DNA of 23,761 nt from a virus: positions 1 through 23,761 of the IMG/VR virus record IMGVR_UViG_3300019776_000371; one strand, given 5' to 3'. The position numbers and the translations under genes were made by a program. The notes under the pieces are model-generated. The model saw only the letters and a program-made list of their open reading frames with translations. It was not told where the DNA came from and ran no database searches. Shown here one piece after another: positions 6,687 to 13,160 of the stretch (position 1 is the first letter of the stretch; every line of letters starts with the position of its first letter).

Positions 6687-6848
6687 ATGCGCCCTGACTA
6701 CTGGAACCCGACTTGGTTCAAACAAGGCCAGCAAGTGAAATATTCCGGCTTTGATGCCACTGTGATTCGTCATTACTTCGATGGCATGTGGGAAATCCGT
6801 TTGCCTGGTGGCGTGTCGGTAGTAAGCGGTGCAGACATCATCGCTTAA
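6687..6848 (+). CDS. Small hypothetical early protein (53 aa)
   Basis: The 53-residue product begins MRPDYWNPTWFKQGQQVKYS and ends in a short beta-rich stretch (MWEIRLPGGVSVVSGADIIA). The alternating strands and the phrase GQQVKYSGFDATVIRHY suggest an SH3-like barrel, which is a guess from pattern. ATG 6687 is preceded by GGAGAAGAAG. It is the first gene of the rightward early transcript, the position of lambda N, but it has no basic RNA-binding stretch at the N-terminus, so an antiterminator role is not supported. Confidence 0.6.
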   Translation: MRPDYWNPTWFKQGQQVKYSGFDATVIRHYFDGMWEIRLPGGVSVVSGADIIA

Positions 6849-6861
6849 CACGGAGAACGAA

Positions 6862-7023
6862 TTGAACAATGATTTGAAAGACCGCATCGACGACCAGGAA
6901 CGCGAGTATTTTGAACGCCGCCTTGAAGAACTGAGCGCCGGTCAGCACTGGAACCGCTCCGAGCTGTATCACAAGATCAACGAAGAACTTGCGCAGATCC
7001 GCGCAAATCGCAACGCACCTTAA
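6862..7023 (+). CDS. Small acidic helical protein (53 aa)
   Basis: The frame is open from 6829, but TTG at 6862 is the better start because GGAG lies 6 bases upstream and the gene then does not overlap its neighbour. The product (NNDLKDRIDDQEREYFERRL and onwards) is almost wholly charged helix and contains WNRSELYHKINEELAQIR. It could be a small coiled coil. No family is recognised. Position 6829 (ATG, 64 residues) is the alternative start. Confidence 0.55.
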   Translation: MNNDLKDRIDDQEREYFERRLEELSAGQHWNRSELYHKINEELAQIRANRNAP

Positions 7024-7040: not shown

Positions 7041-7724
7041 ATGGCTACATGGATTGAAGACAGCAATGGCAATAAATGCAGCATCGAATATTTCGGCAGC
7101 GAAGAAAAGGCACGCGAAGCGCTTGCCTCTTTGAAGGAGTGCAAGAATTGTATTAACTGCTCGCGCTGCTCGTACTGCTCGGGCTGCTCGCGCTGCTCGT
7201 ACTGCTCGCGCTGCTCGCGCTGCTCGCGCTGCTCGGACTGCTCGTACTGCTCGAGCTGCTCGCGCTGCTCGGACTGCTCGGACTGCTCGCGCTGCTCGGA
7301 CTGCTCGGACTGCTCGCGCTGCTCGCGCTGCTCGTACTGCTCGCGCTGCTCGGGCTGCTCGCGCTGCTCGTACTGCTCGGACTGCTCGGGCGTTAAAAAA
7401 GAAGAAACCACCGTGCCGGATATCCCGAAAATTGAGAACATCCATCAAGTTGTTTATGCCGCTGTTACCGCCTCGCCAGAAGCGCTGGATATGTCTTCGT
7501 GGCATATCTGCGATACCACGCATTGCCGCGCAGGATGGGTTGTGCATCTGGCCGGCCCAGAAGGTAAAGCGCTGGAGAAATTCCACGATACCCCGCTGGC
7601 TGCAATGCTGATTTACCGTGAAAGCGGCTATCAGATCAATCCTGGCCAGTTCTTCCTGAGCAATGAACTGGCAATGGAAGACATGAAGCGCTTGGCCGAA
7701 AAAGAGGCGAAAGCCAATGATTAA
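7041..7724 (+). CDS. Cys-Ser-X triplet-repeat protein with phage C-terminal domain
   Basis: The protein has 227 residues. Residues 1-33 form a short charged domain (MATWIEDSNGNKCSIEYFGS). From Cys34 to Cys115 there is a cysteine at every third residue, 28 in all, and from Cys40 onward the unit is strictly Cys-Ser-X, 26 copies. X is Arg (11), Asp (6), Tyr (5), Gly (3) or Ser (1). Residues 130-227 form a separate domain with SSWHICDTTHCRAGWVVHLA and TPLAAMLIY, which I have seen in other phage hypothetical proteins. ATG 7041 has CTGGAG upstream. Function is unknown. The array may be a disulfide- or metal-stabilised solenoid or a thiol-rich metal binder; both are inference. Confidence 0.85.
   Translation: MATWIEDSNGNKCSIEYFGSEEKAREALASLKECKNCINCSRCSYCSGCSRCSYCSRCSRCSRCSDCSYCSSCSRCSDCSDCSRCSDCSDCSRCSRCSYCSRCSGCSRCSYCSDCSGVKKEETTVPDIPKIENIHQVVYAAVTASPEALDMSSWHICDTTHCRAGWVVHLAGPEGKALEKFHDTPLAAMLIYRESGYQINPGQFFLSNELAMEDMKRLAEKEAKAND
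7158..7391 (+). repeat. 26 tandem 9-bp repeats encoding Cys-Ser-X
   Basis: Each unit is TGC TCG NNC, where the last codon is CGC, TAC, GGC, GAC or AGC. The first eight-ninths of the unit hardly vary, and all changes fall in the first two bases of the third codon. A local higher-order pattern (Arg-Asp-Asp twice) occupies 7257-7310. Such perfect short repeats are prone to slippage, so copy number may vary among relatives; the 9-base unit keeps the frame. Confidence 0.95.
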
Positions 7725-7815
7725 GCGCATTCCCACAAAATCCACCAACCGCGCCGCGCTGCTGCTGATCCTGATCCCGGTAGCGCTGGTGCTGGGGTAT
7801 TGGGCAAGTCTGTAA
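7717..7815 (+). CDS. Membrane mini-protein, 32 aa
   Basis: The 32-residue ORF starts inside the end of the repeat-protein gene (ATG at 7717, previous TAA at 7722). It has a basic N-terminus (MIKRIPTKSTNR) followed by one hydrophobic segment (AALLLILIPVALVLGYWASL). The topology would be a single inner-membrane span with cytoplasmic N-terminus. Support is the overlap with the previous gene and the textbook membrane profile. Function is unknown. Confidence 0.5.
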   Translation: MIKRIPTKSTNRAALLLILIPVALVLGYWASL

Positions 7816-7836: not shown

Positions 7837-8553
7837 GTGAGCAATATCGTACCGTTCCAAGAAATGGAGAGCATGTCGAGCTATATCGTGCGCTCCAAGC
7901 TGTTCGGCGCCAAGGACGAATCGCAAGCCATGAGCCTGATGCTGCTAGCCCAGGCTGAAGGTCTGCACCCGATGACCGCAATTCAAGACTTCGACATTGT
8001 GCAGGGCCGCCCGGCACGCAAGACGCACTCCATCCTGGCACGCTTCCAGGCGGCAGGCGGCAGCGTGGCATGGGAAGAAATCACGCCCAGCCGCGCATGT
8101 GGCGTGTTCTCGCATAAGCAGGGCGGATCGCTGAAAGTTGAATGGACTTTCGAGGACGCGAAGAAGGCAGGACTGACTGGCAAGGACAACTGGAAGAACT
8201 ACCCGAAGGCCATGCTGCGCGCGAGGTGCATCGCTGAAGGTGTGCGTGCCGTCTTCCCTGGCGCCATCGGCGGCATGCTGACGGTGGAGGAGGCGCAGGA
8301 CATGCCGACGCCTGAGAAGGACATGGGCGCCGCAGAAGTCGTGCAGCGCTCCGTTCATGACCTGCCAGAGTGCACACCTGAGCTGTTCGCTGACAAGTCA
8401 CCAGAGTGGCGAAAGATCGTGACAAGTAATCGCAAAACGGCCGAAGAACTGATTACCTTCCTGAGCACGCGCGCCGTGTTCACCGAAGAGCAGAAGCAGT
8501 CTATCCGCTCCTGGGCACCGCAGCCTGAACCCGAAGAACCACAACCAGAATAA
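7837..8553 (+). CDS. RecT/Red-beta-like single-strand annealing protein
   Basis: The protein has 238 residues. The stretch NWKNYPKAMLRARCIAEGVR (118-137) followed by AVFPG matches the conserved W-x-x-Y-P-x-x-M-L-x-R-A-x-x-x-x-x-R pattern of RecT/Red-beta annealing proteins. Upstream, LHPMTAIQDFDIVQGRPARK (43-62) fits the beta-rich core. The C-terminus is acidic and proline-rich (PQPEPEEPQPE), like the flexible tails that contact host SSB or an exonuclease partner. It lies 8 bases before a YqaJ-type exonuclease, the standard annealer/exonuclease pair. The role would be annealing of resected phage DNA. The family call rests on motif plus context. Confidence 0.7.
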   Translation: MSNIVPFQEMESMSSYIVRSKLFGAKDESQAMSLMLLAQAEGLHPMTAIQDFDIVQGRPARKTHSILARFQAAGGSVAWEEITPSRACGVFSHKQGGSLKVEWTFEDAKKAGLTGKDNWKNYPKAMLRARCIAEGVRAVFPGAIGGMLTVEEAQDMPTPEKDMGAAEVVQRSVHDLPECTPELFADKSPEWRKIVTSNRKTAEELITFLSTRAVFTEEQKQSIRSWAPQPEPEEPQPE

Positions 8554-8561
8554 GGAACCCC

Positions 8562-10211
8562 ATGCAAGTCCATACCCTGATTCAAGGCAGCCCAGAGTGG
8601 CACGCCTACCGCAAGAACCATTTCAACGCCAGTGACGCGCCGGCCATGCTGGGCTGTTCTGCCTATAGGACACGCTCCGACTTGATTCGCGAAATTGCCA
8701 CGGGCCTGACTGCGGAGATTGGCCCAATCACACAGCGCATTTTCGATGACGGCCACCGTTATGAAGCCCTGGCCCGTCCTCTGGCCGAGGACATAATCGG
8801 CGAAGATTTGTATCCAGTCGTCGGCTCCGAAGGCAAGTATTCTGCATCCTTTGATGGACTGACTTTAGACCAGTTCATTGGCTCAGAACACAAGTCTCTG
8901 AACGATGAACTACGCACGCTGATGGCGCCAGGTTGCGAAGGCCATCAATTGCCGAAGATGTATCGCGTCCAGATGGAGCAGCAATGCATGGTGTCTGGCG
9001 CTGAGAAAATTCTTTTCATGGCATCTAAGTGGGACGGTGATCGACTGATTGAGGAATACCATTGTTGGTACATTCCCGACTTCGAATTACGCCGCGAAAT
9101 CCTGGCCGGCTGGACGCAGCTGGAATCCGATATCGCAGCCTATGTTCCGGCACAGGTCACAGAAAAGCCCGTAGCGGAAGCCGTTGAATCCCTGCCGGCT
9201 ATCGCTGTACAGATTCGTGGGGAAGTTGTAGCCAGCAACATGCCGGCTTTCAAGGAACGCCTGTCGGCCTACCTGGCCAGCATCAACACCGACCTGAAAA
9301 CAGATCAGGACTTTGCCAATGCAGAAGCCGTGGTAAAGAACTGCGCCGACACCGAGCGCCGCATCGCCGCCGCGAAAGAGCAGGTGCTGGGCCAGGTGGC
9401 CTGCATTGACGAAGTAATCCGCGCGCTGGAGGATGCCGACGACCAGCTGTCCAAAGTACGCATCCACCTGGAAAAGGAAATCAAGGCGAAGAAGGAAGCC
9501 ATCAAGTCGGCTATCCACCTGAAGGCAGTACAGGCCTTCCGCGATCACGTTCACGCACTTGAGCAGGAAATCTCCCCGCTGCGCCTTGTATTCGATGCAC
9601 GCGACTTCTCGGGCGTCATGAAGAACAAGCGCACACTGGAGAGCCTGCAAAACGCTGTCGATACCGAACTGGCAGCTGGGAAGATCGCTGTTGATACCTT
9701 GGCCTCTGGCATCCGCGCGCGTCTGAACTGGTACAAGATGGAAGCGACGGGCTATGAAGCACTGTTCGCCGACCTGCAAACCATCATCCAGAAAGGCGAT
9801 GACGACTTCAAGCTGCTGGTGTCTAGCCGTATCGATACGCAGAAGAAGGTCGAAGCAGAGAAGCTGGAAGCCGCGCGTAAGGCAGCAGAAGAAAAGGCAG
9901 CAATTGCCGCAGCTCCAGTTCTCGCCGTAGATATGTCCACTCCTGGTGCCGATGTTGTGGACGCGACATTCGCTGGCGGGCTGGTATCGTTCAAGGCCGA
10001 CGCTATTCCAACACTGCCTACCCTGCGCCTGGGCCAGATCAGCGAGCGTCTGGGCTTCACCGTGACCGCCGATTTCGTCTCGTCTCTGGGCTTCGCGCCG
10101 GCCGCAACCGACAAGGCGGCAAAGCTGTACCACGAATCCGATTTCCCCCGCATCTGCGCCGCGCTGCAGCGTCATATTGCAGCGGTGCAGTCCAAATTCA
10201 CCACCACCTAA
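8562..10211 (+). CDS. YqaJ-type phage exonuclease with long helical C-terminal extension
   Basis: The protein has 549 residues. Residues 1-170 are a lambda-exonuclease-like PD-(D/E)XK nuclease: SPEWHAYRKNHFNASDAPAM (10-29), GHRYEAL with Glu68, SFDGL with Asp98, and the Glu-His-Lys motif at 109-111 as the E-x-K catalytic pair. MYRVQMEQQCMVSGA (133-147) gives the conserved glutamine helix. Residues 210-400 are long helices resembling DUF1351-type phage proteins, followed by an Ala/Lys/Glu-rich coil (about 425-450) and a small C-terminal domain. Typical YqaJ nucleases have 200-330 residues, so this is a long fusion. It would resect double-stranded ends for the annealing protein upstream. Confidence 0.85.
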   Translation: MQVHTLIQGSPEWHAYRKNHFNASDAPAMLGCSAYRTRSDLIREIATGLTAEIGPITQRIFDDGHRYEALARPLAEDIIGEDLYPVVGSEGKYSASFDGLTLDQFIGSEHKSLNDELRTLMAPGCEGHQLPKMYRVQMEQQCMVSGAEKILFMASKWDGDRLIEEYHCWYIPDFELRREILAGWTQLESDIAAYVPAQVTEKPVAEAVESLPAIAVQIRGEVVASNMPAFKERLSAYLASINTDLKTDQDFANAEAVVKNCADTERRIAAAKEQVLGQVACIDEVIRALEDADDQLSKVRIHLEKEIKAKKEAIKSAIHLKAVQAFRDHVHALEQEISPLRLVFDARDFSGVMKNKRTLESLQNAVDTELAAGKIAVDTLASGIRARLNWYKMEATGYEALFADLQTIIQKGDDDFKLLVSSRIDTQKKVEAEKLEAARKAAEEKAAIAAAPVLAVDMSTPGADVVDATFAGGLVSFKADAIPTLPTLRLGQISERLGFTVTADFVSSLGFAPAATDKAAKLYHESDFPRICAALQRHIAAVQSKFTTT

Positions 10212-12102: not shown

Positions 12103-12250
12103 CGTCCCCTCTGCTAAAAGTCAGAGGTTCCTTCTACAAGCGTCGCACGTCCGCGACGGAGAATATTAACGGCAGCATTTACGTCACGATCATGAACCGT
12201 TCCGCAATCACTACATTGCCATTCTCTTATTCCAAGACCTGCGATACCTT
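12099..12250 (-). ncRNA. Candidate omega RNA (reRNA) at the tnpB 3' end
   Basis: In IS605-group elements the 3' part of tnpB plus the right end is processed into a guide scaffold that continues into flanking DNA as the guide. The hairpin at 12108-12127 and the TCAA end fit this. The guide would then begin GGCTGGCTCCTGGTGGCGGC, which is complementary to the end of the host phage gene. The 5' limit given is arbitrary. Confidence 0.35.
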
Positions 12251-13160
12251 TCGGCCTCTCGGGCGGCAAGGAGCCGCAGCAAGAACAGGTTTGGGTGGTA
12301 AATCGTTCATCGACTTCCTCGAACATAGCGCCATGCCTAATGGCCTTGTACGCGAGTTGGTTGCGGAATGTCGTCCAGCTTGCATCATTGACGGACTTTG
12401 CCATGCTGGTCTTGGCGAGTCCTGCCGCATTGATGTTGCCAACGGCGATGTAGTCGAACTCGTGCACGATGCGATGCGTGAGTTTGTGAATGAAGTCGCT
12501 GCGGCGGGCGGCGATCTTTGCGTGAATCTTCTTGGTTTGACGCTTCTTACTGGCCCGCTGAGCCTTAGCGAGGAAATCTTCGAGTGCTCTATAGTGGCGA
12601 GGGTTGTCGATCTTCTCGCCGGTGGAAAGCGTAGCGAAATCTTTGAGCCCAAGATCTATTCCGACACCAGATCCGATGGAGCGCGCAAGATTTTCTTCGA
12701 CCTCAATGGCAATGTTCAGATACCAGTTGCCAAGAGAGTCCCGAGAGAAACATGTACCGTCTTTGATCTTTCCTTCTGGAAGTGGCCGAGACTTGAACAC
12801 TCGGAAAATATTTCCATCAAATCGGAAATCATCGCCAACCCTGTAAAGGTCACGGCCTTTTATCGGGAGCCAGCCAAGCGACTTTTTGCCACGATATCGC
12901 AGATATGGGCGACGTTGTTTTATCCGCGATTTTGCATACTGCTCACATACTGCGTTGATTGCCCCAGCATGCAAACCAAGTTCTTTACTGCTTCCCGTGG
13001 TAAGTCTATTCAGATCAAAACCAGAGAGCCATTTTCGGTCAAAGCGAAGGGCATCCTTTTGCCGATCATTGCAGTAGTTCCAGACAAAATCAACCTTCCT
13101 GGACTTCTGGTTTAACCAGCCAGTGAGAGATTTCACACGGTAACGATAGAACAAAATCAT
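12114..13160 (-). CDS. tnpB: TnpB RNA-guided nuclease homologue, variant RuvC-II
   Basis: The protein has 348 residues starting MILFYRYRVK, with a GGTGG site upstream. RuvC-I is GVGIDLGLKDFATLS with Asp169. The zinc ribbon is TCSCCG (Cys292, 295) and WQCSDCG (Cys316, 319). RuvC-III is HDRDVNAAVNIL with Asp326. At RuvC-II, where typical TnpB has Glu-Asp-Leu-Asn, this protein has VGNINAAGL, so Gly241 replaces the catalytic Glu; LAKTSMAKSVNDASW follows as in relatives. Glu285 in VDERFTTQTCS is a candidate substitute, since related TnpB groups carry a rearranged glutamate there. TnpB normally cuts DNA next to a target-adjacent motif using an omega RNA. Whether this copy is active, rearranged or dead is open. 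Confidence 0.85.
   Translation of the reverse strand: MILFYRYRVKSLTGWLNQKSRKVDFVWNYCNDRQKDALRFDRKWLSGFDLNRLTTGSSKELGLHAGAINAVCEQYAKSRIKQRRPYLRYRGKKSLGWLPIKGRDLYRVGDDFRFDGNIFRVFKSRPLPEGKIKDGTCFSRDSLGNWYLNIAIEVEENLARSIGSGVGIDLGLKDFATLSTGEKIDNPRHYRALEDFLAKAQRASKKRQTKKIHAKIAARRSDFIHKLTHRIVHEFDYIAVGNINAAGLAKTSMAKSVNDASWTTFRNQLAYKAIRHGAMFEEVDERFTTQTCSCCGSLPPERPKGIAGLGIREWQCSDCGTVHDRDVNAAVNILRRGRATLVEGTSDF

Follow-up and report, generated by a model that had tools for sequence, protein, structure and literature searches.

Pentapeptide repeat proteins (PF00805), among them MfpA and Qnr, consist of tandem short repeats with an invariant core residue and fold as a right-handed quadrilateral beta-helix with four repeats per coil (PMC8145042). 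A shorter inward period is known from the beetle antifreeze beta-helix (TmAFP; 1EZG), in which every third residue points inward: the inward residues of each 12-mer are C2, S5, C8 and A11, two of the four being cysteines (PMC8038014). A comparable overall architecture occurs in gp34 of Ruminococcus phage phiRM10, an early-region protein in which an N-cap is followed by a solenoid of GNAxVxG hexapeptides and a small conserved C-terminal domain with the motif CGCFxGT.

Here, we describe a phage protein with a long array of Cys-Ser-X (CSX) triplets, encoded in a 23,761-nt stretch of viral DNA (IMG/VR record IMGVR_UViG_3300019776_000371, positions 1 to 23,761; hereafter, “the window”). Like the pentapeptide repeat proteins, it has tandem short repeats and an invariant, putatively core residue, but the repeat is 3 rather than 5 residues long and the residue is Cys rather than Leu or Ala; with this period and no Pfam match, it falls outside PF00805. 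Its cysteine at every third residue would fit the alternation of inward and outward residues in TmAFP. A sequence-only reading of this DNA had stated that no characterized fold has this period; the period-3 inward residues of the beetle protein provide a counterexample (PMC8038014). Similarity to beetle antifreeze protein is weak by phmmer (E 0.055) and largely compositional, and there is no evidence of common descent. The 12-residue TCTxSxNCxxAx consensus of TmAFP and its ice-binding TxT face are absent from the array protein; indeed, CSX arrays contain no 12-residue unit, and their duplications cover any number of triplets. TmAFP is also secreted and disulfide-bonded, whereas the array protein has no evident export signal. 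The order of N-cap, short-repeat array and small conserved C-terminal domain is shared with phiRM10 gp34, whose repeat and C-terminal domain are of other types.

In database searches, the C-terminal domain matches phrog_31265 (E 1.2e-26) and the N-cap plus array match phrog_15341 (E 3.5e-17). Both PHROGs are unannotated, and neither describes a fold or an interchange of arrays. Sequence searches of Pfam (up to E 1), NCBIfam and PDB with the array protein returned nothing significant, and the C-terminal domain has no detected relative in Pfam or PDB. The score against HxsA (NF038313) is 17.2 bits, below the model's curated cutoff of 55 bits, and the His-Xaa-Ser repeat is absent. A search of the open-access literature for (C-S-X)n arrays found nothing relevant.

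The array protein

The array gene (7041-7724, + strand) is preceded by a Shine-Dalgarno-like GGAG and encodes 227 aa (Table 1). Its cysteines lie at residues 13, 157 and 162 and, at a strict spacing of three residues, at 28 positions from 34 and 37 through to 115. Residues 34-117 thus form 28 triplets, CKN and CIN followed by 26 strict CSX units in which X is R (11), D (6), Y (5), G (3) or S (1). This recount bears out the sequence-only reading, which had reported both the cysteine at every third residue with 26 strict units and the restriction of X to these five residues. When the protein sequence was shuffled 20,000 times, the longest period-3 run of cysteines was 6, compared with 28 in the actual sequence.

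Table 1. Parts of the array gene and the recombination genes downstream of it, in window coordinates
Feature	Position	Strand	Basis
N-cap, residues 1-33: short beta strands and a helix	7041..7139	+	AlphaFold2 pLDDT 94-97 in both models; phrog_15341
(C-S-X)n array, residues 34-117, 28 triplets; proposed Cys-cored beta-solenoid rod	7140..7391	+	Repeat analysis, homologues, model
Linker between array and C-terminal domain; differs among homologues	7392..7424	+	Homologue sequences
C-terminal helical domain, residues 129-227, W-H-x-C-x-T-T-H-C-R-A-G-W; most conserved part	7425..7721	+	phrog_31265, alignment, pLDDT mostly >90
Context: RecT-like single-strand annealing protein	7837..8553	+	phrog_561, E 5e-23
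Context: RecE/YqaJ-like exonuclease	8562..10211	+	phrog_7655, E 8e-169

Conservation and turnover of the array

At least 128 relatives were found in a scan of viral contigs, 80 of which were kept; these totals are lower bounds, with sampling partly through array-based queries. Bacterial genomes (Bacteroidota, Pseudomonadota, Acidobacteriota and Peregrinibacteria) hold 25 more loci. The sequence-only reading had turned to homologues of the C-terminal domain for the question of whether the array is conserved or mostly lacking. In all readable kept homologues, the stretch before this domain is (C-S-X)n or a closely similar (C-x-x)n, which answers the question in favor of conservation. The arrays range from 4 to about 60 triplets, with a median of 32. 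Cys occupies the first position of 2845 out of 2852 triplets (2744 of 2746 under stricter array borders), with rare replacements by Tyr, Ala, Thr, Ser or Leu; the second position is Ser in 86%, and the third is almost entirely limited to D, G, R, N, Y and H.

Could the array be a translated simple DNA repeat that has no role at the protein level? The window array is a 9-bp tandem array of 25.8 copies with homogeneous codons: every Ser is TCG, and 27 of the 28 Cys codons are TGC. However, phages bearing CSX arrays span 34-65% GC and spell the same triplets with different codons, since the Ser codon differs by phage (TCG, TCC, TCT, TCA or AGC) while being uniform inside each array. Because Ser codons vary between phages and the triplets are kept, the pattern is conserved as protein; the uniform codons within one array indicate that each array is homogenized by duplication. 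The caps are also conserved, and the arrays are always in frame. Codon diversity refutes the simple-repeat reading, which has next to no chance of being correct.

The length of the array varies even between close relatives. For example, two phages that are 99.7% identical over 10.6 kb (L064 and L078) have 28 and 25 triplets; other pairs have 37 and 42 (L002/L018) or 30 and 50 (L063/L067), with the proviso that assembly error is possible in single cases for array lengths from metagenome contigs. Runs of at least 6 identical triplets at a lag were observed 58 times, against 12.8 expected, and are spread over many lags. Neither these duplication lags nor the autocorrelation of X favored any multiple of 3 or 4 triplets that might give a coil size (9 or 12 residues). 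Judged from the homologue sequences, the array is conserved and under selection as a protein rather than as DNA, is widespread, and changes length fast.

Several related sequences fall beside this picture. In Flavobacterium phage FL-1 (L001), which has been cultured, the CSX gene is broken across frames, with the array and the C-terminal part in different ORFs; the array part carries no annotation in the record. Loci L405 and L411 show tandem families of (C-x-x)n proteins within one stretch of large-phage contig, up to about nine in L405, with the N-cap RWYDENNNSW and the C-terminal motif RLLEPDL/RKLELEL. On sequence grounds, the rod module has expanded there into a set of paralogues. Runs of CSGCSG with no cap (L194, L198, L205 and others) are probably Gly-rich genes read in an antisense frame and were excluded on visual inspection; such frames are a trap for pattern searches.

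Interchange of array types

The C-terminal domain, named here for its THCRAGW motif, is about 95 residues long, and its invariant alignment columns include L, M, W, C, T, H, C, G and W. Across bacterial genomes and a second viral scan, at least 380 THCRAGW loci were found, in which the domain is preceded by CSX arrays or by ADLRG pentapeptide arrays; in one truncated case (L097), an LRR-like stretch precedes it. Each of 50 phage records tested has exactly one THCRAGW gene. Among 32 phages with CSX arrays, 31 have no pentapeptide gene, and the one exception has one at contig ends. The pentapeptide versions share with the CSX proteins the THCRAGW domain, a similar set of exposed residues (D, N, R, S and G) and, in some phages, the genomic slot: the order array gene, RecT, RecE is common to the window (CSX) and to L095 and L118 (pentapeptide), with homologous downstream genes at 30% and 44% identity. 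No homology was detected between the CSX and pentapeptide N-caps.

A second C-terminal domain gives a similar picture. A scan for CSX-coding DNA patterns also found (C-x-x)n arrays with other C-terminal domains, one of them bearing the CGCFxGT motif, and this domain was then sampled by its own DNA-pattern motif, independently of the repeats. The script classed the arrays before it as hexapeptide (54), pentapeptide (16), (C-x-x)n (10), CxFG hexapeptide (5) and other (6), with 17 unreadable because of their shortness; on visual inspection, all but one of the six “other” arrays are hexapeptide as well. The CxFG hexapeptide (L509, L543, L558, L485 and L479) is a further short-repeat array that contains Cys and plays the same role before the CGCFxGT domain. 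The CGCFxGT and THCRAGW domains are unrelated to each other, and the phrog_15341 profile spans N-cap and array both in the window protein and in (C-x-x)n proteins with different C-terminal domains. These sequence comparisons document an interchange of array types and a genomic slot in which it occurs. That two unrelated C-terminal domains each accept several beta-solenoid types as well as (C-x-x)n is the chief reason to regard the latter as a likely beta-solenoid itself.

An alternative explanation is that the thiols are the function, with a cysteine ladder that binds metal (metallothionein-like or as stacked Cys4) or stores redox or disulfide equivalents in the infected cell. There are many thiols per protein, Cys is almost never replaced while Ser and X vary, and the C2-C8 pairs of beetle antifreeze proteins do form disulfides (PMC8038014). 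Four observations count against this explanation. First, the core Leu of THCRAGW-joined pentapeptide arrays (735 of 736) is as invariant as Cys, such that burial alone would explain the invariance; the invariance of Cys was therefore rejected as proof of thiol chemistry. Second, many phages carry the same C-terminal domains with arrays other than Cys arrays, and thiols are thus not needed for the shared role. Third, the rare replacements of Cys do occur. Fourth, no recognized Cys-rich metal-binding family was matched in Pfam or NCBIfam. Overall, we consider thiol function unlikely. Of the guesses that the sequence-only reading attached to a thiol ladder, the solenoid survives, and metal binding, disulfides and a redox sink are unsupported. 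A related alternative, slightly less likely still, combines the two ideas: (C-x-x)n would be an undescribed minimal beta-solenoid of three residues per face, with an unbroken inner column of thiols that is chemically active in the cell as stacked metal-thiolate sites or switchable disulfides. If so, the stiffness or assembly of the phage rod would depend on metal or redox state.

The array could also be a hypervariable binding surface, with array turnover presenting new faces of randomly ordered D, R, G, Y and H to host targets. The order of X is near random and differs between close relatives, and nearly all arrays keep a mixture of D, R and G. However, X is confined to a small hydrophilic set that resembles the residues at exposed pentapeptide positions, and any surface pattern is lost on swaps to other solenoids. 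Moreover, duplication homogenizes the codons and so accounts for turnover without selection for diversity. A binding surface is thus an improbable explanation, on a par with thiol function.

Predicted structure

An AlphaFold2 model of the full protein has pLDDT >90 over most of both flanks, consistent with the earlier view that two ordinary domains flank the array, and pLDDT of about 30-40 in the array itself. With an ungapped alignment of the N-cap and 28 triplets, block-mean pLDDT is 88 and then 71 over the first triplets, each of which forms one isolated beta-bridge on its second residue (Ser), and falls below 50 beyond them. Foldseek searches of both models against the PDB gave no match. 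Structure prediction, proposed in the sequence-only reading as a check, thus yields confident flanks and, at moderate confidence, beta-bridges at the start of the array, whereas pLDDT stays under 50 across most of its length. The proposed beta-solenoid fold is partly modeled in this way, and we infer inward-facing Cys side chains. Most likely, the array forms a rod-shaped beta-solenoid for which phages substitute solenoids of other types, with the same C-terminal domain retained.

Genomic setting

The window is a fragment of a lambda-like phage with NinG, NinB, helicase, primosomal, tail and head-closure genes. The array gene is the third small + strand ORF, after 6687-6848 and 6829-7023, in agreement with its place in the sequence-only reading, and lies in an early region directly upstream of RecT and RecE; promoter-like matches around these ORFs are not clearly above chance. 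A tiny ORF (7717-7815, + strand; MIKRIPTKSTNRAALLLILIPVALVLGYWASL) overlaps the end of the array gene, is predicted to encode a likely membrane segment, and may be translationally coupled to it. Within the early region, on the opposite strand, is a TnpB/OrfB-like transposase gene (phrog_506; 12114-13160, - strand). The usual RuvC-II Glu seems to be replaced in its product (FDYIAVGNINAAGL), which suggests a nuclease-dead protein.

Proximity to recombination genes raises the possibility of a DNA mimic like Qnr and MfpA, or of a Gam-like protein that shields the ends of phage DNA. Such genes lie near many copies, the window gene is beside RecT and RecE, and known pentapeptide proteins mimic DNA (PMC8145042). 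However, MfpA and Qnr have a strongly negative rod surface, whereas the window array has a net charge of +6 and homologue arrays average -0.16 per triplet and lie between -0.70 and +0.18, a charge that is not DNA-like; DNA mimicry was rejected on this basis. In addition, phiRM10 has a Mu Gam-like protein alongside its CGCFxGT-domain protein, and a recombination gene (YqaJ, RecT or ERF) was detected at only 21 of 60 fully flanked homologue loci. A role of either kind is very unlikely. Since the recombination module is often, not always, near the array gene, no specific pathway is claimed.

Functional implications

What might the array do? We consider it probable that the array forms a narrow beta-solenoid rod with a cysteine core, exchangeable with other phage solenoids, that spaces or multimerizes the conserved C-terminal domain early in infection. 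Each Cys-Ser-X triplet would be one short solenoid face, with Cys directed into a stacked core, Ser forming a beta-bridge between coils, and the X residue, which may be Asp, Gly, Arg, Tyr or His, exposed at the turn. Phages would exchange this rod module for pentapeptide or hexapeptide beta-solenoids and retain the small C-terminal domain. Variation in rod type, length, X order and charge is tolerated, which argues against sequence-specific information in the rod; given this tolerance and the strong conservation of the C-terminal domain, the rod is proposed to space or multimerize that domain. The rod would be rigid, neutral to weakly charged and freely variable in length, and it may act near the phage recombination module. 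That the rod is a spacer and the C-terminal domain the active part is our conjecture.

If this explanation holds, a face of three residues would rank with the shortest repeats of any beta-solenoid, here with a cysteine core in a protein that has no evident export signal. The proteins would form a class of early phage protein that has apparently escaped annotation, in which a conserved C-terminal domain is carried on interchangeable solenoid rods. That interchangeability would make their function testable by swaps, and the arrays may offer a natural set of repeats for protein design.
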